Below are positions 1,660 to 22,602 of a stretch of 64,000 bases of DNA, piece after piece. The translations under genes and the position numbers were made by a program. The notes beneath the pieces were generated by a model. The model was not told the origin of the DNA, searched no databases, and saw nothing but the letters and a program-made list of their open reading frames with translations. This DNA comes from Urechis unicinctus (lineage: Eukaryota > Annelida > Polychaeta > Xenopneusta > Urechidae). Within the stretch, counting starts at the first letter, position 1; each line of letters opens with the position of its first letter. The stretch is taken from assembly GCA_034190875.2 (NCBI GenBank), contig CM067355.1:33797314-33861313 (forward strand), read 5' to 3'.

Positions 1660-3310
1660 CAGAGTGACGCTACAGGGAATGAGGATAAGCGATGTAAAGA
1701 ATGGCAAAGGAATAGGAGGGATGTCATCACAGGGATTGAGGACCCGCTTTGTACAGGACCGTGAGTAAAGAATGGATGATGTCACAGGGAATGAGGACCC
1801 GCAGTGTACAGCACGGTGAGTAAAGGATGGATTATGTCACAGGGAATGAGGACACGCTTTGAATGGGACGGAGAGTAAAGGATGGACTATAGACGGAGAG
1901 TAAAGGATGGATGACGTCACAGGGAATGAGGACCCGCTTTGTACATGACGGTGAGTAAAGGATGGATTATGTCACAGGGAATGAGGGCACGCTTTGTATG
2001 GGACGGAGAGTAAAGAATGGATGATGTCACAGGGAATGAGGACCCGCAGTGTACAGCACGGTGAGTAAAGGATGGATTATGTCACAGGGAATGAGGACAC
2101 GCTTTGAATGGGACGGAGAGTAAAGGATGGACTATAGACGGAGAGTAAAGGATGGATGACGTCACAGGGAATGAGGACCCGCTTTGTACATGACGGTGAG
2201 TAAAGGATGGATTATGTCACAGGGAATGAGGGCACGCTTTGTATGGGACGGAGAGTAAAGGATGGATTATGGCACAGAGAATGAGGACCCGCTTTGTATG
2301 GGACGGTGAGTAAAGGATGGATTATGTCACAGAGAATGAGAACACGCTTTGTATGGGACGGAGAGTAAAGGATGGATTATGTCACAGGGAATGAGGACAC
2401 GCTTTCTATGGGACGGAGAGTAAAGGATGGGTTATGTCACAGGGAATGAGGACCCGCTTTGTATGGGATGGAGAGTAAAGGATGGATTATGTCACAAAGA
2501 ATGAGGACCCGCTTTGTATGGGATGGAGAGTAAAGGATGGATTATGTCACAGGGAATGAGGACACGCTTTGTATGGGACGGCGAGTAAAAGATGGGTGAC
2601 GTCACAAAGAATGAGGACCAGCTTTGTACAGGACGGTGAGTAAAGGATGGATAATGTCACAGAGAATGAGGACACGCTTTGTTTGGGACGGCGAGTAAAG
2701 GGTGGATTATGTCACAGGGAATAAGGACCAGCTTTGTATGGGACGGTGAGTAAAGGATGGATTATGTCACAGAGAATGAGGACACGCTTTGTATTGGACG
2801 GAGAGTAAAGGATGGATTATGTCACAGGGAATGAGGACACGCTTTCTATGGGACGGAGAGTAAAGTATGGGTTATGTCACAGGGAATGAGGACCCGCTTT
2901 GTATGGGATGGAGAGTAAAGGATGGATTATGTCACAAAGAATGAGGACCCGCTTTGTATGGGATGGAGAGTAAAGGATGGATTATGTCACAGGGAATGAG
3001 GACACGCTTTGTATGGGACGGCGAGTAAAAGATGGGTGACGTCACAAAGAATGAGGACCAGCTTTGTACAGGACGGTGAGTAAAGGATGGATAATGTCAC
3101 AGAGAATGAGGACACGCTTTGTTTGGGACGGCGAGTAAAGGATGGATTATGTCACAGGGAATAAGGACCAGCTTTGTATAGGACGGTGAGTAAACGATCG
3201 GTGACGTCACAGTGAATGAGGACCTGCTTTGTATAGGACGGTGAGTAAAGGATGCGTGACGTCATTGGGAATGCGGACTCTTCACGAATAGGATGGTGAG
3301 GAAGCGATGG
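1660..3310 (+). repeat. 55-bp minisatellite array with higher-order duplication
   Basis: About 30 imperfect copies of a unit near 55 bp lie head to tail. Each unit reads roughly: a GTCAC word, gggaatgagga, a C-rich word, gctttgtatgggacgg, and gagtaaaggatgg. Larger blocks are themselves duplicated: the variant containing ctttctatggg recurs about 440 bp later (near 2402 and 2842), equal to eight units, and a variant with an extra actatagacggagag recurs about 246 bp apart (near 1882 and 2128). Several copies contain the palindrome TGACGTCA (near 1911, 2157, 2597, 3037, 3201 and 3256). A diverged relative of the unit ends the window. The array finishes about 310 bp before the first exon of the NLR gene. 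Confidence 0.95.
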
Positions 3311-4347: not shown

Positions 4348-4744
4348 GTGAGTTGATATCGCTATATGTACTGCACCACTCATATATGACTTTCCGCAAG
4401 ACATTTCGTTTTAGTCAGTGCTATGACAATTAACTGCTTGCTTAAGCGCCCCTTTGAGCAGGATTATTTCTAGGAAACAGGCGCTATACAAATGTCATAT
4501 ATGTTATGTTACATATAAGTGGACGGTTCACACTCATGGGTTATCCATATTGACCCTATTGACAACATTGACTGGAGCCCAGTTTATCATATTATCTTAG
4601 TGGTCGCTTTCTTTAACCGCATGCTATTTATGATATCCCTCGTTGGTTGTTCCGCGTTTCTACTCGATGTACCAATTGAAAAGTAAGATTGTAAAGACGT
4701 TTAAGTACGACAAGAATATTTACATGCTTCTCCTTTCATTACAG

Positions 4745-6881
4745 CTTGCGGCTGACCACACAGGCGCTAATTCACCCAAATCATTTGATGAATGCCTCAC
4801 CGAAAGTAGGGAACGAATTGTTGAGGAGTTAGAGGACTTAGACGATATCCTAGGGTATCTGTTATCCAAAGACGCAATAACTGAGAACCAGACAGATGTG
4901 ATAAGGACTCAGAACACCGATAGGGACAAGGTTAGGGAGCTGTTGGATTGTGTGCATAGAAGAGGGGAGGAGGCCTGTAGAAGCCTTGCTGTCGGTCTGA
5001 GAGATACTGAACAGATACAACTGTGTCAGTTTTCCGCCAGCCTTAAGCTAGAGTTAGACCAGGTGCCAGTTAGAGATGTCCTCAGCATTGATCAGTATAT
5101 GACTGAGATGAAAGCTACCTATAAGCAGAAGATTAAAGATAGAAACAAGCAAGAAAAAACCCAGTACGGAAATAGCATCAGTTTAGACAAGCACGAACCA
5201 GTGATTATCAATCATGGACAACGACCACCGGACGCACAGACACGAAAGGGATTCGACGAGTTTCACATTCAAAAGACGGACAGAAAACAATTGACATTAG
5301 ACAATGTTTTTCTCACGGACACCGATAGACGTCGACCGCATTCAGTGCTCATGCTGGGTGGCCCCGGCATGGGCAAGACTTCACTATGCTTCACCATCTT
5401 GAATCGCTTTGCAATTGGTCAATGGGGGGGTCATCATTTCATATTTTTGATGTTATTGAAAGAGTTGGGTGACATGGGACTGTCGCTGACGTTAGCTGAC
5501 CTACTGTTTGACTACAACCAAACTGCACGGACTGAGAAACAGAAACAAAAGCTAATTCGACAACTTCAAAAACGACAAGACAGAATCCTGTTTATATTCG
5601 ACGGCTATGACGAGCACGACGAGTTTATGACGGACGAAGTGACTATTTCTGATCCATCAACAAAAGCTAAACCTGGTGTCATTCTGCGTAGCCTCGTTCG
5701 TGGAACCCTTTTACCACATTCCCAGGTCTTGCTAACCAGCCGTCCATTTCGTCAAGTTGACTTGAAAGTTAACAGGGTGGTGGAGATAGCGGGACTCTCT
5801 GACAAATCGATCTACACACTACTCAATGAGCTTCTTGTCGGCGAACTGGGGTCTGAAACCGCTGCATTTCTCAGGAATCACGATGACGTTAGAAGCATGC
5901 TATCAATACCAATTAACATCCAAAAATTTCTCAGCTATCTGATTTGGCTACGTGATAGCGCTACAGGTATTTTACCAAATCTTCCAAAAACCAAATCATC
6001 CTTGTATTCAAAACAAATGCTACCTGTACTTACGCAATGCCTTAGGTTGAAAGATATACATCTCTTTACTGAAGATGAAATATGGTGCCATGAATTCGTC
6101 CAGTCATTCCTCATTAAGTTAGCTGAATTAGCAAGCTCATCTTTCGGTCAGTTCGGAAAGAAACAAATCTTATTTCAGCGCAATGACCTTGTCAAATGCA
6201 AGCTTACTGAGCAGGAAGTCAAGATCGGTGGTTTGATGAGTATGTTCACAAAGCAGACCAAAACACCCCTTGGCATACGCCCGGTCGTCTGTTTCTACTT
6301 CAACCACCTCACCACCTTAGAGTGGTGTGGTGGGTTGGATACTGCGAGTCGCGATATCAAATACATGGAGAATCTCATCAAACATAATGACGGAAATCTT
6401 GACGTTGTCTTGATTTTCTGTGCAGGCTTATTAGGGGCCAATGAAGGCCAACTGATCCTTGATCGTCTATATCACATTTCTAAACGAGAATGTCAACAGA
6501 AAGCCCAAACCGTTTTGAACCAAATTGTCGGTTCTGACAGGTGTAAGAAAAACGGTGGCCCTCAATTTGCTATCGAAGTTTTTTTCGAGGCCTCATTCAT
6601 TGATCCTCGTCTCCTACTGCCATTGTTAGCTCCTGACGGACAGACACTTGAAATAGGTGATATAGCGATGTCTAACAGGCAAGCTGTAGGTTACTTTGTA
6701 GAGCAGCTGAACTCGTCACAGGACGAGCAGACGGGAGCAAAAGGGACACCTGGTAGCGAGATTGGTTTAGATACGGTGAGGCTTCACTTCACTCGTGCGG
6801 CTGACAGAACGGTCCAAAACAGCATGGTGACGGAAGTCGCCAAATTGAAGAAGCTCAAACACCTACTGATTGACACTGACG
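4745..6881 (+). CDS. NLR-like receptor, CARD-NACHT exon
   Basis: A long exon of about 712 codons begins after the acceptor tttcattacag and ends at the donor gtaggt (6882). Residues are numbered within this exon. About 12-90 form a death-fold helical domain that reads as a CARD (hydrophobic helices ending EEACRSLAVGLRDTEQ). A linker follows, then a NACHT NTPase: Walker A GGPGMGKTS near 204-212, Walker B ILFIFDGYDE near 280, and a sensor motif LLTSRP near 330. Downstream is mostly helical, consistent with the winged-helix/HD2 part. Such proteins are cytosolic pattern sensors that oligomerise on ATP binding and recruit partners by CARD-CARD contacts. The frame is uninterrupted and the NTPase motifs look intact, so the ATPase part appears functional. 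A start at the upstream ATG 4643 inside the intron is possible, but splicing from exons 1-2 fits phase better. The ligand is unknown. Confidence 0.85.
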
Positions 6882-7104
6882 GTAGGTGGTAGCGCCGGTT
6901 ATATCACATTACGCACGTGCACATTGCTGATCTAGTTGAACACTGCATACTTGATTTCATCACTATGAATAGCATGTGAGCTAAAAGATGGCAAATATTC
7001 CCTCCATTAAAGAACGCGTCCTTATTTGCGGTCATGACGTGAATTATAACGTCGTCATTTGTGTCAGTGATGTCACGCGTCTGGTGTTGTTGTGTTGTGC
7101 GTAG

Positions 7105-11017: not shown

Positions 11018-11223
11018 ATGGGGCACTTAAGTGTATAGAGGTAGTATATATGTGCCGCGCGACGGGGTATGTTTTTTCGGCCGACTTGTACGACGGGTTT
11101 TTGGGCTTCATACTTGTTCGACGGCCATGTTTTTCAGCTTCAATCTGTACGACGGGTTATACGTTCGCATAATACCTTGTACGACGGGGTATGCTTTTGG
11201 CCATTTTGACCTTGTACGACGGG
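11018..11223 (+). repeat. Dispersed repeat with TTGTACGACGGG motifs, copy 1
   Basis: This starts at ggggcacttaagtgtatagag and contains five or so spaced copies of a motif near ttgtacgacggg. About 110 bp of it recur at 51095-51225. The palindromic element is inserted in the last motif: the duplicated target GACGGG is part of that word. I know no family for it. Confidence 0.75.
11218..11223 (+). repeat. Target-site duplication, left (GACGGG)
   Basis: The six bases GACGGG directly precede the left terminus AGTAGTGATAG and recur directly after the right terminus (22597-22602). Six-base duplications are the hallmark of Polinton/Maverick integration. Confidence 0.8.
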
Positions 11224-11471
11224 AGTAGTGATAGACGTGCCCCTAACTACCACGTTTTTGACATCGAACTCTGGACGACGTGGATTGCGCAATATATTTT
11301 TCGCTGACGATCGCATGCGGATTCGGTGCGGTATTTTGATGACCTAATTCTATTTTTGGAAAGTGATTTCACCATCTGTTCCGTTATTTTCCGCCCTTGA
11401 AATCTTTGCGACCTTGGTGACCTCATGGAGGGGCGCTATTTTGGATGAGGTCATTTTTGGGAGTTTTATTG

Positions 11472-11757
11472 TCAATTCATTTGGATTGAGGTAAAACCAC
11501 GGCACAAGATGTGAGGGAAGCTGGCGAATTATAAATCGCCGACCGTTAGTGATTACATGAGGGTGGCCTTTGTGGTATTTATCAAAGAGTCTTGTCTCCA
11601 TTCAGGATATGCATCTCATTTTAAGAATCCTCAAAGAGTCCCTTCCGGTCGCCCATGCTAATTTGAATGTTCTCTATCAGGTATAAATAAGCTCCCTTCC
11701 ACTCTCATCGCACTTGCCACAGCAGCAGCAGCGTCCGCAGCATTCATAGTTTGAATC
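11472..11757 (+). repeat. Ngaro split direct repeat A1
   Basis: 286 bp from tcaattcatttgg to catagtttgaatc, repeated as A2 at 15816-16098 with one three-base difference in an agc run. It contains the likely promoter, with a tataaata word near 11680, and ends 19 bases before the gag start. Confidence 0.9.
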
Positions 11758-11776
11758 AGCAATTTATAGTAGAGTT

Positions 11777-12874
11777 ATGGCCATGGCGTGGCCTGAGACT
11801 TTGGCTCCTCTCTATGGAGACCCAAACGCTAGTGTACAACGTATAGCGCAAAAGCAAACTCCCCAGCAACCTCCTCAGCAGTCGGGATCGGACAACTTTG
11901 ATCGACCCACCGAATTCGACGAACAACTGCGGGAATTAGGTTTGACGTCCGACACAGCGAGCAAGATCATGTCGGCTGGATTTGACTCATGGGAGACGCT
12001 CGTGACCATGCAGCCAGAGGACCCCGCGGCCATCGGCATCAAGCCTCTTGGTCAGCAACGGTTGCTGCAACAACTGCTACGGGACCGTGTCGCCCGCAAG
12101 GCACCGCAATCTCCTTGCGGAGTCTCACCACCAAGCAAAGATCCGATGCAGGAACTAAACCTGGGACTGAGCGAATTACTCGGCAATTTAGGAACAAACA
12201 GTTGTGGCACCGGCAAGCGCCCGACCGATACAGGTGAGCGAGTTGATCTAAATCCACTTTCTTATCTACTTCCTGCCCAAAAACCTAAATTTCTGGACAT
12301 CGTGGACTTCATTGAGACCACTGGTGCTCAGGAACAGATTATCTCGGAGAATGTAGACCAGCAAGTACTTCTACGTACTGGTCCAAAGCCTAAAAAACTA
12401 GAGAACGTCACACCTATGCAGTGGAGTGCAGCAAACATACACATAATGATGCAGCTATTGCGAGAGGGGCTTCTGAAACAGGAGTCAATGCTGGACTATC
12501 TCGCATACACAGTCAAAGTCAGCGAACTGGCTGACAGGTACCTGTGGACATCAGTTCTTGCGTTTGACAGGTCCTACAGGAGGCTGCAGGCACAACACCG
12601 TTTCCGATGGGGGAGTGACAGTCCCCATCTGACGTCCATACATTTGCGACCACGTGGCCTCGACCTCCACCAACGTGCCCCAGGGAAAGGGACCTCACCC
12701 AGGTCCCAGACCGACAGTGCACCCTCTGTACACTGCCGCATGTTCAACAGAAACCAGCAGTGCCCTTACGGACAGTCCTGCCGATTCCTACATAAATGCT
12801 CCGCCCCCAACTGCAACGAGAACCATCCTCTCGCCCTTCACGGTAAAAACATTACCACGCCAAAAAACGCCTAG
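11777..12874 (+). CDS. Ngaro ORF1, gag-like protein
   Basis: 365 residues, intact. About residues 45-105 form a helical SAM-like segment (ELGLTSDTASKIMSAGFDSW). The C-terminus has a CCCH zinc finger with spacing C-x8-C-x5-C-x3-H (starting CRMFNRNQQC, about 318-339), followed by a second Cys/His cluster. Proteins of this kind bind the element RNA and form the nucleocapsid-like particle. The ATG at 11777 is the first after repeat A1. The RT frame follows within about 50 bases. Confidence 0.85.
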   Translation: MAMAWPETLAPLYGDPNASVQRIAQKQTPQQPPQQSGSDNFDRPTEFDEQLRELGLTSDTASKIMSAGFDSWETLVTMQPEDPAAIGIKPLGQQRLLQQLLRDRVARKAPQSPCGVSPPSKDPMQELNLGLSELLGNLGTNSCGTGKRPTDTGERVDLNPLSYLLPAQKPKFLDIVDFIETTGAQEQIISENVDQQVLLRTGPKPKKLENVTPMQWSAANIHIMMQLLREGLLKQESMLDYLAYTVKVSELADRYLWTSVLAFDRSYRRLQAQHRFRWGSDSPHLTSIHLRPRGLDLHQRAPGKGTSPRSQTDSAPSVHCRMFNRNQQCPYGQSCRFLHKCSAPNCNENHPLALHGKNITTPKNA

Positions 12875-12921
12875 CCGCAGAGCCAGCATTAACAGACCAT
12901 TACCGAACCAATGAAGATAAT

Positions 12922-14410
12922 TTGTGTCGCAATCTACAACCACCAAATATTACAACTACCCTCCGCGTCTCTGCTTGGGAAAGAGAATTATCAAATGATC
13001 CAGACTCCACCTTCCTCCTAGATGGGATCCGCAATGGATTCAGCATTGTTGACTCAACCGAATCTATACCTCCAGCTGAAATGAACAATTATTCGTCTGC
13101 TACTGACGCAAAAGCTCTGGTGGAAGAGCAATTAGTATAGGGAATTCGTGAAGGGCATTATGTCATCTCGCCCACAAAACCCCCTTTGATCAGTGCCATA
13201 AGCGCTATACCTAAACCGGATGGAACTGTACGTTTGATTCATGACTGTAGTCAACCTGAAGGGTCATCTCTTAACGATTATGCCAACCTAAATTATAAAA
13301 CAAATTATCAAACCATGCAAGACGTCGTTAATTTAATTGAACCAAATAGTTTTATTGCCAAAGTTGACCTCAAGGGAGCATACCGTAGTGTAAGTCTACA
13401 CCCGTCTCAATATCCGTTGACAGGTCTTAAATGGAAATTCGGAAGTCAATCGGAATTCACCTTCCTCTACGACACAAGGCTGCCGTTTGGGGCTCGAAAA
13501 TCGCCAGGAATCTTCAACAGGCTCACCCAATCTGTTAGGCGAATGATGGAACGCCGTGGGTTTAAGATTGTAGTGTATTTGGATGATTTCTTAGTGGTAG
13601 GTGAATCGCATTCTTCCTGTTTAGTTGCTATGAACACATTAATAGTTCTGTTGCGAGAGCTTGGCTTTGCTATTGCTTGGAAAAAAACCGAGGGCCCTTC
13701 TCAAGCGATGGTGTTCCTAGGAATTCAAATTGATACCATCTCTCTAACATTGAGCCTGCCAACTGATAAGGTTCAGAAACTCTTCCAGTTACTGACTGAA
13801 TTTAAAAACCGCTCTCGCGCCTCTGCTCGCCAGTTGCAGCAGCTAGCAGGCAAATTGTCTTGGGCATCACATGTTGTACACGGAGGTAGACGTTACCTGC
13901 AACGCGTCCTTGATCTACTGCGCCCGCTCCAGAAATCTTCGCATAAAGCTCGCCTATCTCCCGATTTTCTCGCTGATGTCGAATGGTGGCTTAATTTCCT
14001 ACCAACTTTCAATGGCAAAAGAGTGATTCTATCAAACCCGCCCGTATCGTTCGTGTATACTGATGCCTGTAATGACGGTGGCGGCATGATTACATCACAC
14101 GACTGGTGCTATCTCGACTGGCAGCTAGACTGCCCTGACATCAAAAGTCGCCACATCAATGTTAAGGAAACATTAACTGCAATTGCCGCAATTTATAGAT
14201 GGGCTCCTCTGTGGCAGAACCACCACGTGGTCCTGTACACCGACAACATTACAACCAGAGCTGCAATTAACAAAGGCGCTTGTCGCAACAGTCTCCTCAT
14301 GAGTCACCTTCGACAAGTATTCTGGTTGGAAAAACGCGGTTCAACTTCTCCGTGACTGCTGTCCACCTTCCCGGTACTGCAAACTATTATGCCGATGCCG
14401 TTTCCCGCTT
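12922..14410 (+). pseudogene. Ngaro ORF2: reverse transcriptase and RNase H, broken
   Basis: One frame runs from 12922 to 14355 with an in-frame TAG at 13138. RT motifs include KVDLKGAYRSVSLHP (palm motif with the first Asp), LPFGARKSPGIF, and the catalytic YLDDFLVVG near 13575. RNase H follows: FVYTDACNDGGG near 14050 and LYTDN near 14235. Near 14335 a frameshift moves the remaining RNase H end (HLPGTANYYADAVSRL) into another frame. The protein would copy element RNA into DNA. With one stop and one shift it is probably inactive here. Confidence 0.85.
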
Positions 14411-14584
14411 ACGACATAAAGGGAGCTTCCTCCATTGGCTGACGATCCTGTCCGCCGGTGCCCCACTCAGCACTCGTACCGTTCCCGTAATATTATCTGA
14501 TCACATGTCAGCTACTTCCCTCAATTATTTTATGCTACAGGTACCTCGCCTGATTCCCTGGCAGCCACCCTAGCCGCTGAAGTC

Positions 14585-15480
14585 GTCTACTACAGGTCTC
14601 TCACTTTTGCAGAGGCCACTAAGAAGGCGTATTCCTCTCATCTAGCCCGCTACCTCAAATTTTGTGAACTATTAAAGATGCCACCATTACCCGTCACAAG
14701 TAGTGTATGTATGTATGTACGCTGCTTATTTGGCCAACGACTTGAGTTATGCGTCGATAAGGAAGTATTTGAACATCACCCGCATTTTGCACATGGAGAA
14801 TGGTTTGGGGAACCCCTTGCAGGATAACTGGGAGCTACAGGGAGTCCTAAAAGGTATTAAGCGAGATAGGGTGCGTCGACCCTCCAAAAGCTACCCATTA
14901 CACCGGCCATTCTTCTACAAATTCGCAAGCACATGGACTTCTCCTCACCGCGAGATCTCGTGTTCTGGGCAGCATGCCTTGTAGCGTTCTACGGGCTGCT
15001 GCGCAAATCTAACATCATGCCACCTTCAGCGAGCCGGTTCAACCCCGAAAAACATCTATCTCGTTACGATGTGTTCGTTTCACCTCGAGGTCTCGCGTTG
15101 CGAATGAAATGGTCCAAAACCAACCAATATAAGGAGCGTGTTTGCTGGGTCCCGTTACCGTATCTACAAGGACATCCTTTGTGCCCGGTCACTGCCCTAT
15201 CGGCAGTGCTTATCCTGGACGGTACTGCACCTTCCTCGACACCTCTTTTCTCCTTTCCAACCCCGCGTGGACCCCACTTGCTAACTCAACAAATGTTCGT
15301 GCGCCGCCTCCAGTCCGTACTCGCCTTATCCGGCCTCCCTGTTACAAAATACTCTGGTCACAGTTTTCGTAGAGGAGGAGCAACCTGGGCGTTCACTGCC
15401 GGTATTCCAGGGGAGGTGATCCAGACCATGGGTGACTAGCGTTCCCAGTGTTACACGCGTTATTTAGATATACATATAAA
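14585..15480 (+). pseudogene. Ngaro tyrosine recombinase, broken
   Basis: The N-terminal core-binding helices read from about 14600. A short gtatgtatgtatg expansion near 14705 adds residues, and a frameshift near 14930 moves the catalytic domain into the frame that opens at 14933. Catalytic residues seen are Arg in YGLLRKSN and the HxxR box HSFRRGG near 15359. A TAG at 15437 lies just before the residues that would carry the nucleophilic Tyr (QCYTRYL downstream), so this copy ends before its active Tyr. The enzyme normally integrates the circular DNA copy. Confidence 0.85.
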
Positions 15481-15557
15481 TACCCGTTTTAATTACCTTG
15501 ATACCTTTGCCTCCAGGCTCCCTACTCACTAATCTACTACCCTACACTCTGTGGTCT

Positions 15558-15815
15558 TGGGCCTTTTTTGTTGTTGTCACATAATGCTTTTTTATTCATA
15601 TTTTGATTAACTATTATTATTAATATTCTTACATCACTTTATATAACTTATTTGCCTTTCATGTGCTCTTACTCATATTTTGAGCATATCATATCAACAA
15701 ATATCATTACCTGTGTTCTTGTTAATATTATGTAACTGTATGCTTTGCTGTTGCTTTGTGATCGCACATTAAAGGCCCGTAGTTTTCTCCACTTCTGGTG
15801 TTCGTGGTTTTATTG
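15558..15815 (+). repeat. Ngaro split direct repeat B1
   Basis: 258 bp from tgggccttttttgttgttg to gtggttttattg, identical or nearly so to B2 (16187-16444). It lies after the recombinase gene. A word attaaaggcccg near its end may serve 3' processing. Confidence 0.9.
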
Positions 15816-16098
15816 TCAATTCATTTGGATTGAGGTAAAACCACGGCACAAGATGTGAGGGAAGCTGGCGAATTATAAATCGCCGACCGTTAGTGATTAC
15901 ATGAGGGTGGCCTTTGTGGTATTTATCAAAGAGTCTTGTCTCCATTCAGGATATGCATCTCATTTTAAGAATCCTCAAAGAGTCCCTTCCGGTCGCCCAT
16001 GCTAATTTGAATGTTCTCTATCAGGTATAAATAAGCTCCCTTCCACTCTCATCGCACTTGCCACAGCAGCAGCGTCCGCAGCATTCATAGTTTGAATC
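15816..16098 (+). repeat. Ngaro split direct repeat A2
   Basis: 283 bp, the second copy of A1, sitting directly after B1. It is followed by about 88 bp of unique sequence and then B2. Confidence 0.9.
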
Positions 16099-16186
16099 TC
16101 CCATCCCTTTCCCTCCCTTAATTAATGGTCTCCGACTGGCTCTGCTTCTCCTATCTGCCACCTGCTTTTTCTTAGATAGTTATTAG

Positions 16187-16444
16187 TGGGCCTTTTTTGT
16201 TGTTGTCACATAATGCTTTTTTATTCATATTTTGATAAACTATTATTATTAATATTCTTACATCACTTTATATAACTTATTTGCCTTTCATGTGCTCTTA
16301 CTCATATTTTGAGCATATCATATCAACAAATATCATTACCTGTGTTCTTGTTAATATTATGTAACTGTATGCTTTGCTGTTGCTTTGTGATCGCACATTA
16401 AAGGCCCGTAGTTTTCTCCACTTCTGGTGTTCGTGGTTTTATTG
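16187..16444 (+). repeat. Ngaro split direct repeat B2
   Basis: 258 bp, the second copy of B1. It marks the 3' end of the retrotransposon and ends in ttttattg, the word also present at the target. Confidence 0.9.
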
Positions 16445-17052
16445 AGAAGGAGTTTGTAAATGGGTATTAAAAGTCAATTAGCGGTAATGGTGTTGAAAGA
16501 GAAGTGAAGGATAGTGTTAATGTTAGTGGAGTATTCACCATCTGTTCAGATATGAAGACGGTGTTTACGAGGTGATTTGTTGCTATTAACTTCCTTTATC
16601 CCATGACATGTGGTGATATATTGAATTGGTGACCTTAGGAGGCTAACGCGATGTACGGTATTCGAGTGAGTTCATTTGGGGCTATGTCCTTAGGAAGGTT
16701 GTTGACTTTCGACCTGCTGTGATGAATGGGCGGTATTTGGGTGAGGTCATTTTCGATAGTTTTATTGAGGAGATTGTAAATGGCTATTAAAAGTCAATTT
16801 TCGTTAGATATGTTGGTCGATTGAAGTTTTCACGTGAATGAATCTTACTAGCATATGAGTCTTACATAGGAGGGAAAAAATGACAGATGTCTTTAAGTGT
16901 GTTGTAACTCTCATTGAGAATATAACGACAGATGGATTAAAAGTTGACCATTGGATATTTCTCAAAATGGGGGTGGAGTTATGGGTTACAAATAGCGGAT
17001 GGTAACTTAACTTCCGAATAGTTTTCATCTGGAATATTTCCAAAAAGTCATA

Positions 17053-17529
17053 ATGGAACATATCCATAAAAATCATTTTGTTTCAACGGACCCATCAAAA
17101 TCAAAATTTACTAATTCCGACTATCCTATTTTAGTGAACGAAACGTTAAAAAATCCTGATTTGGAGGAGCAATTTGAACTTTATAAAATTATTTCATATA
17201 AGCGATTCGAATATGTAGTTGGCGTGACAGGGGAGTACCCCGGAGGATACATTTCAGCCCCTACCAAGTGGGTGAAAGCTATTACCAAGGGTGGGTCCCT
17301 CGTAACGGCGTATCCCGTACTGTGAGTATTTGCTTAAAGCACGCTATATCATAGTATAGATTCGTTGACTTTTTTGTATCTGTTGTAAGTCTATATTTCT
17401 TTGTATGCAGGGAACCCAAACATTTATTACCAGAGACCCGTGAGTACCGCAAATGTTTAAGATTCTCTGGAATTTTATTTTATTCTTAGAGATTAAAACA
17501 AAAATAATTTGTTTTTGTTTGTAGGATGA
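17053..17529 (+). CDS. Orphan spliced gene of the palindrome, left copy
   Basis: Exon 1 is 17053-17321 (starting MEHIHKNHFVSTD), exon 2 is only 29 bases (17411-17439), and exon 3 from 17525 supplies a stop at 17527. All three borders are GT-AG and phases agree, giving a product of about 100 residues. A poly(A)-like aataaat follows near 17571. I do not recognise the protein: it is mixed alpha/beta with no signal peptide or membrane segment, and has YVVGVTGEYPGGYISAP near the end. It is conserved intact in the mirrored copy, with a single Glu/Gly change, which argues it is coding. An opposite-strand frame across its 5' end is a shadow. Confidence 0.5.
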
Positions 17530-18004
17530 AGATAGAAGAAAATAGTTAAAATTTAAATATTTTTTAAAATTTAAATAAATATAAATACATAAATGTTATA
17601 CTGGTGTTTGTGTTATTAATCGGACTTGATGAATCTGTGGTATAATTACACAAGCTGGTAATGTGATTTACCGATCGTTGAATTCACGATGCGCATCTAT
17701 CTTAATTAAATAACGACTCATGTCAAACGATTTGATAAATTAGTCATTGTGAGTTTGCCCCCCTGTCCGTCGATTTCGCATTCACCTCAGATATTGTGGT
17801 GACATCATTCTATTTTTGGAAAGTGATTTCATCATCTGCTCGAATATTTTTCGTCCTTGAAATCTTTGCGACCTTGGTGACCTCATGGAGGGGCGCTATT
17901 TTGGATGAGGTCATTCTATTTTTGGAAAGTGATTTCACAATTTTCGTCGGATATGTCGTCATAGTTTGCTGAGCTAAGCTAAGTGATGGGATATAGAGGG
18001 TGTG

Positions 18005-18047
18005 TATAAAACGGGAGAGTGTCTCAGTCCTGCGTTCAGTTATAACC
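18005..18047 (+). promoter_or_regulatory. TATA promoter of the polymerase-like gene, left arm
   Basis: TATAAAA at 18005 is followed 19-33 bases later by initiator-like TCAGTCC and TTCAGTT, and by the ATG at 18048. The mirrored box lies at 20786-20792 before the ATG at 20749. The spacing is normal for a polymerase II core promoter. Confidence 0.6.
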
Positions 18048-19428
18048 ATGGCTGGGAAGAGACAGCTAGAAGCTTTCAACGATGTGTGCAAACGCAGTAG
18101 ACCGATGAGCGATGCGGATTTGTTAAAAGCCGTGAAACAAATCGAGATGGAAAGCAGTATGTATGATTTTATTTTCTATATCTGAATTATAGAATTACCA
18201 CGTATACGTCATTTATTTATTTATTTTTGTTACGCGTGTGTGTTTTAGTGTTGACGGGAGACGAAGATATTTTACATGTCGCTATGGACGCGTATGAAAT
18301 AGAACAGGCCAATGCAGCCTTGAATTTGTTAAACAACGCTCAACACACAGCCCCCCCGACACAAACTGGAAATGGCGCTACAGTCGACAACGCTAAGGGT
18401 AGGTCTATTAAAGGATAGGTCTATTACCGGTAGAATTGAGGAATGACGTAATGGAAAGCTTTATGATTTTGGGTGATATTTATATTGACAGATATCGATG
18501 ATTATGTCGACAGAAGCTGTGTTGGCTGCGAATGAACGAGCTATACGAACTCATACGCGATTTGGAAGCCTGCAAACTGTTTACAATTATAGTTTATCAG
18601 AAGATGTGCCCAACCTCAACCAGTATATATTTGAGGAATGCGATTCAGCCTTTAAAATCAACGGGAGTTATGGATTCTTATTACGTCACAAAGAATCAGA
18701 TGAATTGCGGTACTTTCATTCGTCCGTCAATAACCATCGTATGCTACCAACCCCTCTAGTCGTACGGAATGCCGATGATTTTGAGAGGGCTATGCGTGAA
18801 ATAACACAAACAGACATTTTAACCTACGCCCAGAACCAACGACCGGATTCGAAATGGAGTGTAGAGGAAGTGACTAATTTGACCATCTTTGTGAACCCAA
18901 TCGAAGATCACGTGATCGGCTACCCACCACCTGTTATACCGGATCACCTGAAAACAAACAGAGCCATCGACTTGTTAGACCGAAAGAAAACCACGGGTAA
19001 ACCGTATCAAGACCGATTGTGCTTTTTCAGGGCACTGGCCTTACACAGAGGAGCGAAGATCAGGAGTCTAGAGAACGCAGCAAAAACATTGTTAAAGAGT
19101 GCTTACCCCAAACAAAAGAAAAAAACATTTGCGGGTGTACCCCTTGAAGACGTCGAAAGACTAGCAAAACAATTCGAAGTGAATATCACCGTGTATACGC
19201 TAGACGAGAATCAAGTAAGTGTGTCTTGTAGTGATTAAACAGAAGTAACAACATAAACGATGTAATCATTTGATATCGAAATGGAAATATGAGATGTGAT
19301 CGATTTGTTATATGTGTTTCAGGTAGCTACTTTGGTCAAGCGAACGCGTACAAAATTCGCCTCGACCTTGAAATTGAACCTGTACGAAAATCACTTTAGT
19401 TACATCAAAAACTTTGACCTTTATAGCA
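18048..19428 (+). CDS. Polinton-type DNA polymerase B, N-terminal part, left copy
   Basis: Exon 1 is 18048-18156, exon 2 18249-18398, exon 3 about 18492-19214, exon 4 from 19323 to the palindrome centre. Exon 3 holds a conserved block with DRLCFFRALALHRG and, further on, a KTFAGVPLEDVERLAKQFEVNI segment, which precedes the DNA polymerase B domain in Polinton and adintovirus-type proteins; that is my basis for the name. The exon 2/exon 3 joint is out of phase at the best GT-AG sites, so the exact joint is unresolved. The polymerase catalytic domain is missing: the copy stops at the fold-back point. It could yield a truncated protein or be only a passenger. Confidence 0.65.
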
Positions 19429-19523
19429 GTACATATGTTTTCGTGGCGATGTAGTTTTTTCTCACTTTTCCACAGCTTCTGACAGGTACCACAAATATAT
19501 GATTTGCTATAAAGGTCAAAGTT
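19410..19523. repeat. Palindrome centre: 19-bp inner repeat and 76-nt loop
   Basis: aactttgacctttatagca at 19410-19428 is exactly inverted at 19505-19523, with a 76-base unique loop between. In the gene this word occurs once, in exon 4, so the arms appear joined at or near it. Confidence 0.85.
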
Positions 19524-20749
19524 TATCAAATGATTACATCGTTTATGTTGTTACTTCTGTTTAATCACTACAAGACACACTTACTTGATTCTCGTCTAGC
19601 GTATACACGGTGATATTCACTTCGAATTGTTTTGCTAGTCTTTCGACGTCTTCAAGGGGTACACCCGCAAATGTTTTTTTCTTTTGTTTGGGGTAAGCAG
19701 TCTTTAACAATGTTTTTGCTGCGTTCTCTAGACTCCTGATCTTCGCTCCTCTGTGTAAGGCCAGTGCCCTGAAAAAGCACAATCGGTCTTGATACGGTTT
19801 ACCCGTGGTTTTCTTTCGGTCTAACAAGTCGATGGCTCTGTTTGTTTTCAGGTGATCCGGTATAACAGGTGGTGGGTAGCCGATCACGTGATCTTCGATT
19901 GGGTTCACAAAGATGGTCAAATTAGTCACTTCCTCTACACTCCATTTCGAATCCGGTCGTTGGTTCTGGGCGTAGGTTAAAATGTCTGTTTGTGTTATTT
20001 CACGCATAGCCCTCTCAAAATCATCGGCATTCCGTACGACTAGAGGGGTTGGTAGCATACGATGGTTATTGACGGACGAATGAAAGTACCGCAATTCATC
20101 TGATTCTTTGTGACGTAATAAGAATCCATAACTCCCGTTGATTTTAAAGGCTGAATCGCATTCCTCAAATATGTACTGGTTGAGGTTGGGCACATCTTCT
20201 GATAAACTATAATTGTAAACAGTTTGCAGGCTTCCAAATCGCGTATGAGTTCGTATAGCTCGTTCATTCGCAGCCAACACAGCTTCTGTCGACATAATCA
20301 TCGATAATCTGTCAATATAAATATCACCCAAAATCATAAAGCTTTCCATTACGTCATTCCTCAATTCTACCGGTAATAGACCTATCCTTTAATAGACCTA
20401 CCCTTAGCGTTGTCGACTGTAGCGCCATTTCCAGTTTGTGTCGGGGGGCTGTGTTGAGCGTTGTTTAACAAATTCAAGGCTGCATTGGCCTGTTCTATTT
20501 CATACGCGTCCATAGCGACATGTAAAATATCTTCGTCTCCCGTCAACACTAAAACACACACGCGTAACAAAAATAAATAAATAAATGACGTATACGTGGT
20601 AATTCTATAATTCAGATATAGAAAATAAAATCATACTTACTGCTTTCCATCTCGATTTGTTCCACGGCTTTTAACAAATCCGCATCGCTCATCGGTCTAC
20701 TGCGTTTGCACACATCGTTGAAAGCTTCTAGCTGTCTCTTCTCAGCCAT
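19429..20749 (-). CDS. Polinton-type DNA polymerase B, N-terminal part, right copy
   Basis: The mirror of the left copy, with ATG at 20749, the same exons 1-3 and a canonical GTAAGT donor after exon 1. The start of exon 4 is deleted, but 76 bases beyond the fold point encode a C2H2/C2HC-like cluster (YICGTCQKLW then HRHENIC), the zinc-finger segment expected after exon 4 in this family. Residue differences from the left copy are few (AEKRQ versus AGKRQ; one Thr/Ser). The catalytic domain is absent. Confidence 0.65.
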
Positions 20750-22596
20750 GGTTATAACTGAACGCAGGACTGAGACACTCTCCCGTTTTATACACACCCT
20801 CTATCCCATCACTTAGCTTAGCTCAGCAAACTATGACGACATATCCGACGAAAATTGTGAAATCACTTTCCAAAAATAGAATGACCTCATCCAAAATAGC
20901 GCCCCTCCATGAGGTCACCAAGGTCGCAAAGATTTCAAGGACGAAAAATATTCGAGCAGATGATGAAATCACTTTCCAAAAATAGAATGATGTCACCACA
21001 ATATCTGAGGTGAATGCGAAATCGACTGACAGGGGGGCAACTCACAATGACTAATTTATCAAATCGTTTGACATGAGTCGTTATTTAATTAAGATAGATG
21101 CGCATCGTGAATTCAACGATCGGTAAATCACATTACCAGCTTGTGTAATTATACCACAGATTCATCAAGTCCGATTAATAACACAAACACCAGTATAACA
21201 TTTATGTATTTATATTTATTTAAATTTTAAAAAATATTTAAATTTTAACTATTTTCTTCTATCTTCATCCTACAAACAAAAACAAATTATTTTTGTTTTA
21301 ATCTCTAAGAATAAATAAAATTCCAGAGAATCTTAAACATTTGCGGTACTCACGGGTCTCTGGTAATAAATGTTTGGGTTCCCTGCATACAAAGAAATAT
21401 AGACTTACAACAGATACAAAAAAGTCAACGAATCTATACTATGATATAGCGTGCTTTAAGCAAATACTCACAGTACGGGATACGCCGTTACGAGGGACCC
21501 ACCCTTGGTAATAGCTTTCACCCACTTGGTAGGGGCTGAAATGTATCCTCCGGGGTACTCCCCTGTCACGCCAACTACATATTCGAATCGCTTATATGAA
21601 ATAATTTTATAAAGTCCAAATTGCTCCTCCAAATCAGGATTTTTTAACGTTTCGTTCACTAAAATAGGATAGTCGGAATTAGTAAATTTTGATTTTGATG
21701 GGTCCGTTGAAACAAAATGATTTTTATGGATATGTTCCATTATGACTTTTTGGAAATATTCCAGATGAAAACTATTCGGAAGTTAAGTTACCATCCGCTA
21801 TTTGTAACCCATAACTCCACCCCCATTTTGAGAAATATCCAATGGTCAACTTTTAATCCATCTGTCGTTATATTCTCAATGAGAGTTACAACACACTTAA
21901 AGACATCTGTCATTTTTTCCCTCCTATGTAAGACTCATATGCTAGTAAGATTCATTCACGTGAAAACTTCAATCGACCAACATATCTAACGAAAATTGAC
22001 TTTTAATAGCCATTTACAATCTCCTCAATAAAACTATCGAAAATGACCTCACCCAAATACCGCCCATTCATCACAGCAGGTCGAAAGTCAACAACCTTCC
22101 TAAGGACATAGCCCCAAATGAACTCACTCGAATACCGTACATCGCGTTAGCCTCCTAAGGTCACCAATTCAATATATCACCACATGTCATGGGATAAAGG
22201 AAGTTAATAGCAACAAATCACCTCGTAAACACCGTCTTCATATCTGAACAGGTGGTGAATACTCCACTAACATTAACACTATCCTTCACTTCTCTTTCAA
22301 CACCATTACCGCCAATTGACTTTTAATACCCATTTACAAACTCCTTCTCAATAAAACTCCCAAAAATGACCTCATCCAAAATAGCGCCCCTCCATGAGGT
22401 CACCAAGGTCGCAAAGATTTCAAGGGCGGAAAATAACGGAACAGATGGTGAAATCACTTTCCAAAAATAGAATTAGGTCATCAAAATACCGCACCGAATC
22501 CGCATGCGATCGTCAGCGAAAAATATATTGCGCAATCCACGTCGTCCAGAGTTCGATGTCAAAAACGTGGTAGTTAGGGGCACGTCTATCACTACT
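19505..22596 (-). repeat. Right arm of the palindrome (no Ngaro)
   Basis: About 3.1 kb, the mirror of the left arm. Compared with the left arm it lacks roughly 130 bp near the centre: the end of intron 3 and the first part of exon 4 of the polymerase gene. It has the canonical donor GTAAGT where the left arm has GTATGT after exon 1. Both arms keep the main frames open. Confidence 0.9.
21265..21740 (-). CDS. Orphan spliced gene of the palindrome, right copy
   Basis: The mirror of 17053-17529, with the same three exons (first exon 21740 down to about 21472), the same 29-base middle exon and the same stop. One residue in exon 1 differs (EQFGLYK here, EQFELYK in the left copy). Function unknown. 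Confidence 0.5.
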
Positions 22597-22602
22597 GACG
22601 GG
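22597..22602 (+). repeat. Target-site duplication, right (GACGGG)
   Basis: Same six bases as at 11218-11223, directly after the right terminus. The following bases read gacggg again after one extra g-rich step, so the exact edge could shift by a base or two. Confidence 0.75.

Follow-up and report, generated by a model that had tools for sequence, protein, structure and literature searches.

A long palindrome in the genome of Urechis unicinctus is a non-autonomous derivative of a Polinton (Maverick), in which one end of a Polinton, the end bearing the polymerase-B gene (polB), is present twice in mirror image. The element occupies positions 11224-22596 of the 64,000-nucleotide stretch analysed here (hereafter the window; C14:33797314-33861313 in a 1.19-Gb genome of 926 contigs), corresponding to C14:33808537-33819909. 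The palindrome is real, as the likeness of its two arms goes far beyond chance. It was probably generated by snap-back copying of a linear Polinton and then inserted into the chromosome by an integrase.

Comparison of the window with itself revealed two inverted arms of 3,232 and 3,092 bp, which run inward from 11224 and 22596 and meet at ~19.43 kb. The element of 11,373 bp starts with AGTAGT and ends with ACTACT, and the outer 248 bp of the two arms (11224-11471 vs 22349-22596) are a 100% inverted match. The mirror symmetry ends exactly at the tips of the element, adjoining a direct repeat, GACGGG, which is found on both flanks as a 6-bp target-site duplication (TSD). The earlier note on this DNA, which did not mention the duplication, described a symmetric palindrome with nearly identical arms that comprised essentially all internal sequence. 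The arms do end exactly at 11224 and 22596, with 0.35% substitutions between them, and they do meet at ~19.43 kb, but the left arm is not continuous as had been supposed, being broken by a retroelement of 4,964 bp (11472-16435) that was overlooked, and the centre is imperfect, with a 76-bp loop and 134 bp present on the left only. Mirror-copy sequence amounts to only 6.4 kb of the element once the nested insert is set aside. The components of the element are as follows.

11218-11223, no strand: left copy of the TSD, GACGGG (read and computed).
11224-11471, plus strand: outer 248 bp of the left arm, the tip of the terminal repeat, starting AGTAGT and cut off from the inner arm by the nested insert (100% inverted match to 22349-22596).
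11472-16435, plus strand: nested DIRS/Ngaro-like retroelement, a later insertion (repeats, open reading frames and domain matches).
16436-19428, plus strand: inner part of the left arm, of which 16436-16444 is the second copy of a shared 9-mer (arm comparison).
18498-19238, plus strand: the left arm's copy of an exon that precedes the polymerase-B domain, an open reading frame (ORF) of 246 amino acids (the polymerase-domain ORF of the full-length relative lies downstream; DNA_pol_B_2, E 2.9e-6).
19275-19408, plus strand: 134 bp that the left arm shares with relatives and that the right arm has lost beside the centre (comparison with relatives).
19409-19428, plus strand: left side of the innermost paired 20 bp, ending TTTATAGCA (arm pairing).
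19429-19504, no strand: 76-bp loop, polymerase-B gene sequence up to the turn, the minus strand ending GTAC before the shared TG.
19505-22596, minus strand: right arm, with the innermost paired 20 bp at 19505-19524 and the tip, ending ACTACT, at 22349-22596.
19561-20364, minus strand: right-arm copy of the same upstream polB exon (ORF reading).
22597-22602, no strand: right copy of the TSD, GACGGG (read and computed).

The coding content of the element is restricted to exons upstream of the polymerase-B domain, and complete genes for polymerase B, integrase and capsid are absent. Pfam gave no match above its cut-off for the arm ORFs, and none of the 589 candidates returned by a protein search with the polB exon reached E <= 0.001.

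The point at which the sequence turns back on itself can be located to the base. Among the 38 exon matches outside the window, 20 relatives were fetched, two of which share one locus (C11), and in 20 of 20 the left-arm sequence passes directly into the reverse of the window's loop, i.e., these copies are unfolded. The fold is resolved because ordinary relatives read straight through its position. Most of the fetched relatives continue from CATATGTACTG into TGGAAACC, a few of them with a one-base difference there or small deletions nearby. On the minus strand of the window, CATATGTACTG is followed instead by CTATAAAGGTC, which is the reverse complement of the stretch immediately upstream. The polymerase-B gene is thus read as far as GTACTG and then the opposite strand follows, the shared TG constituting a 2-bp microhomology. 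At the centre, the innermost 20-bp pairing (19409-19428 / 19505-19524) surrounds the 76-bp loop, and the 134 bp at 19275-19408 are absent from the right arm only. In a full-length relative on C13, the fold position falls inside the ORF bearing the polymerase-B domain (L013:5516-7024), as anticipated by the earlier note, which placed the strand switch within the element's own polymerase gene. Each of our genome searches scored the best 40 candidates, and the resulting counts are lower bounds in which top-scoring copies are over-represented. A 71-base query spanning the junction (best 40 of 419 candidates) matched at full length only at the window; among the remaining 39 copies, 37 contain matches to the two halves with opposed orientations, as expected for unfolded sequence, and two match one half.

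The full-length relative (C13:7386074-7407438; L013, L038, L039) is the kind of parent element that had been proposed to exist in the same genome. Its terminal repeat is ~233 bp long, beyond which the two ends differ, and it is flanked by the TSD GATGTG. It differs from the window arm by 0.64-0.78% substitutions (99.2-99.4% identical; L013 is the closest copy fetched), and the match is 98.8% over 493 bp at its left end and 97.9% over 233 bp at its right tip. Together with the end motif and the 6-bp TSD, this similarity bears out the derivation of the palindrome from a Polinton. The DNA_pol_B_2 match in this copy lies just above the cut-off (26.9 vs 25.8 bits, E 2.9e-6). The ORF at L038:4439-5755 gave no Pfam match; it has 4,480 homologues at E <= 1e-3, including an entry assigned to Pfam PF21738 and an F54H12.2-like protein, both of which we take to be Polinton capsid labels. 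Judging from these homologues, the ORF probably encodes a Polinton-type major capsid protein; among the best 120 listed, every entry with an organism name is from a mollusc (Littorina saxatilis, 63% and 59%; Mizuhopecten yessoensis, 58%). Assignment by eye gave penton-like, protease-like and ATPase-like ORFs, in which Pfam found nothing, and the integrase was likewise assigned by eye only, as the sole match to the rve hidden Markov model is in another Polinton, inside the C10 element described below (L037:2410-3435). A DDE_Tnp_4 transposase gene (L038:617-2248, minus strand) is nested in this full-length copy.

Terminal repeats of 2-3 kb as the norm of the family were considered and rejected in view of the ~233-bp repeat of the C13 copy and of the right-end search (best 40 of 1,019), in which 12 of 40 matches have a colinear polB-end marker (a match of the exon, tip or junction searches) within 30 kb. 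This judgement covers the one full-length copy read and the 12 right-end matches paired in this way. As a separate observation, a subterminal repeat of ~124 bp occurs twice per arm (17792-17915 and 11332-11455, plus their mirror copies; 91% alike), and in the C13 copy the tip of the native right end is joined without interruption to what comes after the inner copy of this repeat.

The divergence between the arms bears on whether one or two molecules were involved. The arms differ from each other by 10 substitutions in 2,824 columns (0.35%), plus small indels, and from the 22 other rows of the comparison (20 loci and both arms of the C10 element) by 0.64-6.2%, the nearest standing at 0.64-0.78%. 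Four variants are common to both arms and absent from the other rows in columns with at least eight copies. The 10 differences comprise three found only in the left arm, three found only in the right arm, three with a match in other copies and one that is unclassable. The three matched differences would suit a head-to-head joining of two Polinton molecules or insertions, or a template jump between molecules: at 17768 both states occur among other copies (A in 12, C in two), and at 18055 and 18135 the left-arm base is found in one of 21. Nevertheless, we regard such an origin as quite improbable, given that the arms are nearer to each other than to any of the 22 rows, that they share four private variants, and that the fold is offset by just 76 bp.

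Our analysis rests on the assembly, and an inverted duplication of one read or haplotype could in principle produce a palindrome of this kind. This is highly implausible here, as each arm has its private substitutions, the 134-bp deletion is one-sided, a 5-kb insertion resides in one arm, a direct 6-bp duplication bounds the whole and the surrounding contig is of chromosome scale (43.8 Mb). An assembly inversion was rejected on the changes confined to one arm and on the TSD. An inverted duplication of the chromosome after insertion was likewise rejected, as the symmetry ends at the tips, in contrast to a locus on C11 described below.

Mirror elements recur elsewhere in the genome. The 40 main rows of each search were screened for pairs of matches, by script for the exon, tip, C5-type and right-end searches and by eye for ARM1, partial secondary rows being omitted (1 of 41 for tip, 48 of 88 for C5-type and 36 of 76 for ARM1). 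Outside the window, the tip search (best 40 of 1,387) yielded facing pairs on C10, C5, C7 (two), C9, C2, C13 and C11; the seven other than that on C11 are a biased sample because the last 15 bases of the query favour the polB end. The TSDs are ATCTAT for C10, AATGGC for C5, TGTGTG and TATATA for C7, ATTGAC for C9 and CTTGAC for C2, and none was found at the flanks of the C13:60519246 pair. The C5 element (C5:30614238-30623574, read whole in pieces) has inner arms of 3.74 kb that are 98.3% identical and outer 483-bp parts that are 99.4% identical, with a spacer of ~0.9 kb. Its sequence type is matched at ~97-99% by the 3.9-kb C7 and 2.7-kb C2 elements, at ~98% by sampled parts of the 24-kb C9 element, which match one another in inverted orientation (99.3% over 700 bp), and at 92-97% by a 14.9-kb C7 element in both places sampled. 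Of four interior samples of the C9 element, two are mirror-arm sequence, one is mostly (TA)n and one matches no compared sequence. In total, five elements matching the C5 type carry five different 6-bp TSDs at five sites. The C5-type query (best 40 of 1,507) gave nine pairs 4.0-9.2 kb apart, known from coordinates only and all facing, with no pair in the other orientation within 30 kb. Facing pairs from the ARM1 query (best 40 of 1,156) are the window itself, C17:8416193/8424130 and C11:6138265/6146156, the latter two containing C5-type matches. The right-end query gave one mirror pair in which the opposite end is duplicated (C13:53451649/53458695; coordinates only). Thus, mirror pairs occur at other loci and, by coordinates, from the other end. 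The earlier note's non-autonomous mirrored class holds in so far as such elements recur; this particular fold point was seen once only among the 40 scored copies (of 419).

Three of these loci deserve description in their own right. At C10:11349962-11368979 (L036, L037), mirrored window-type arms of 2.4-3.0 kb are 98.3-99.0% alike and flank a segment of another Polinton, in which YqaJ and rve domains occur together with a polymerase-B match that falls slightly short of the cut-off. The polymerase-B-like ORF there is truncated at the right arm. Perhaps a second Polinton was inserted into a palindromic one, with a deletion thereafter. At C13:53451649-53459715, native right-end sequences lie with their tips outward, the mirror of the other Polinton end (coordinates only). 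The locus C11:54411771-54432133 (L017, L027, L033-L035) is a complex palindrome of ~20 kb (9.46-kb alignment at 98.5%) that encloses a rearranged Polinton within C5-type sequence; its symmetry continues ~3.2 kb past the tips of the inner element, and inspection of its outer flanks by eye found no matching 6-bp duplication.

The snap-back copying that we consider probable would have run as follows. A linear Polinton genome would be copied from one end by strand displacement, and the 3' end of the growing strand (...GTACTG) would fold back on itself, pairing through TG, and copy its own strand back to the terminal repeat. Completion of the second strand of this hairpin would then yield a linear palindrome bounded on each side by the same terminal repeat, to be inserted by the integrase of a full-length Polinton supplied in trans. 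At the locus, the right arm would subsequently have lost its 134 bp next to the centre, scattered substitutions would have accumulated separately in each arm, and the retroelement would have entered the left arm.

Alternatively, the palindrome may have been formed in situ: after a break in an integrated Polinton, the right end, with its terminal repeat, would invade the left terminal repeat and copy the left arm inward until microhomology joining to the left side produced a repeat spanning the element. Repair of this kind predicts an intact TSD, identical arms and a joint with microhomology, and the presence of the fold at one locus only among the 40 scored copies (of 419) suits it. A gap-repair route has been proposed for Galileo, and expansion of Polinton inverted repeats is said to have been reported (PMC3573991). 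We nevertheless judge repair in situ to be unlikely. The small 76-bp loop favours snap-back copying over gap repair, in which the arm ends extend independently; on arms of ~3.2 kb, an offset as small as 76 bp would be expected in ~5% of cases (2 x 76/3,200, a rough estimate). Repair at one locus also leaves unexplained the spread of mirror elements as palindromes, i.e., the five C5-type elements with five TSDs and the nine facing pairs known by coordinates.

Several points weigh against snap-back copying. Repair in situ templated by the left terminal repeat would preserve the TSD as well, and what was observed comprises the structure of the product, a parent-type relative, the fold and the footprint, a Polinton replication intermediate not being among the observations. 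In this respect, the earlier note's proposal of a fold-back replication product is supported for the mirrored end and the fold, but not for its origin on an extrachromosomal protein-primed molecule, since repair in situ predicts the same ends and duplications. This fold is single-copy among the scored copies, so that an existence of the palindrome outside the chromosome is hypothetical. Long repeats as such are not exceptional, repeats of 100 bp to 8 kb being accepted in Polinton-like viruses (PMC12220804). The C5-type family, with its ~0.9-kb spacer and mosaic arms, may have arisen by another route than this kind of fold; in the 14.9-kb C7 element, mirror symmetry is seen only in the outer 0.5 kb, the deeper samples coming from different arm depths and not matching each other. 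The relatives compared are a sample of 20 of the 38 non-window exon matches, and a copy outside that sample, C2:10657442, scores nearly as high against the left arm as the right arm does (1,851 vs 1,856 bits in a 1-kb search). This copy lacks two of the four variants shared by the arms, namely those inside the 106 bp that were read, and, of the copies seen, ranks first as a candidate near relative of the parent. Sequence at C2:10656407-10657684 is nearly identical to the window arm over its outer 1.3 kb.

Polintons are thought to be virus-like and to be copied by a protein-primed polymerase, and we know of no direct observation of their replication in animals. A base-resolved strand switch, a parent-type element, the product and its footprint in one genome are the scar expected of such replication, and a scar of this kind makes the question testable by a survey of fold points. 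It is attractive to speculate, though we hold this as a tentative possibility, that mirror Polintons in general are integrated snapback (defective-interfering) genomes derived from either end, some of which became parasitic lineages that spread as palindromes by means of the polymerase and integrase of a full-length element. If so, they would be replication fossils indicating that animal Polintons replicate as linear, end-primed molecules, and the multiplication of Polinton-derived sequence that lacks coding capacity would be accounted for by palindromic copies. Palindromes that are long and nearly perfect may also destabilize chromosomes and give rise to double-stranded RNA that could feed silencing.

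The nested insert occupies 4,964 of the 11,373 bp (11472-16435), the left arm being interrupted at 11471 and resuming at 16436-16445. As it is carried by one arm only, the insertion would be younger than the palindrome. It contains split direct repeats (A1, 11463-11757; B1, 15558-15815; A2, 15807-16098; B2, 16187-16444), a gag-like ORF (11777-12874) with a weak CCCH-finger match below the cut-off, a reverse transcriptase ORF (13186-14355; RVT_1, E 4.3e-20) and a tyrosine-recombinase-like ORF (14933-15439) with a phage-integrase match below the cut-off (E 0.05). The repeat layout A1...B1-A2-B2 with a reverse transcriptase is presumably the arrangement of DIRS/Ngaro-type retroelements. The 9-mer gttttattg recurs at both outer edges of the insert and where B1 meets A2, and we interpret it as a recombination core and not as a target duplication. 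Elsewhere in the window, a single long ORF on the plus strand (4634-6892) with CARD and NACHT domains has the architecture of NLR-like immune receptors, and an array of ~55-bp tandem repeats with higher-order periods of 110, 135 and 245 bp lies at 1727-3254.

Among known systems, linear genomes with end-bound proteins yield inverted dimers of one end in the palindromic mutants of yeast killer plasmids and adenovirus; the papers listed in our searches included none recognised as dealing with such mutants. Titles and abstract beginnings of the papers listed from the open-licence literature gave no description of a palindromic Polinton, which does not imply its absence from print. Vertebrate Mavericks have the end motif (AGT)2...(ACT)2 and a 6-bp TSD (PMC8097293). 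The window element has the same ends, a 6-bp TSD and a near-identical full-length relative, but it lacks a unique region, carries the same end twice and cannot encode its own replication or integration. It therefore has the termini, TSD and shared ends of a non-autonomous Polinton derivative and not the gene content of an autonomous Polinton. In Polinton-like viruses, repeats hundreds to thousands of bases long at the termini count as normal (PMC12220804), but they flank a full gene set, whereas here the repeat is the element and that of the relative is ~233 bp. The Salmonella linear plasmid has palindromic ends rather than a palindromic genome (PMC2652032). The first copies of Galileo found consisted of long terminal inverted repeats only (PMC3573991), and the window element resembles Galileo/Foldback elements in being reduced mainly to long inverted arms. 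Those elements differ in having a P-superfamily transposase and no protein-primed replication; a P-superfamily relationship was not found for the window element, the full-length relative of which bears a polymerase-B domain and a capsid of Polinton type, no search having been aimed at a P transposase. With its small central offset and a turn within the polymerase gene, the window element looks like the outcome of a copying error and not of Galileo-like gap repair. Snapback genomes of adeno-associated virus have one end made self-complementary by a symmetric or asymmetric turn, exist in 5'-end and 3'-end versions and have been proposed to arise by template switching (PMC8235507). Those were seen as packaged particles of a parvovirus with hairpin-primed single-stranded DNA, whereas ours are chromosomal insertions with TSDs. 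Like those genomes, the window element has one end mirrored at a turn, which here falls within polB and leaves a 76-bp loop.

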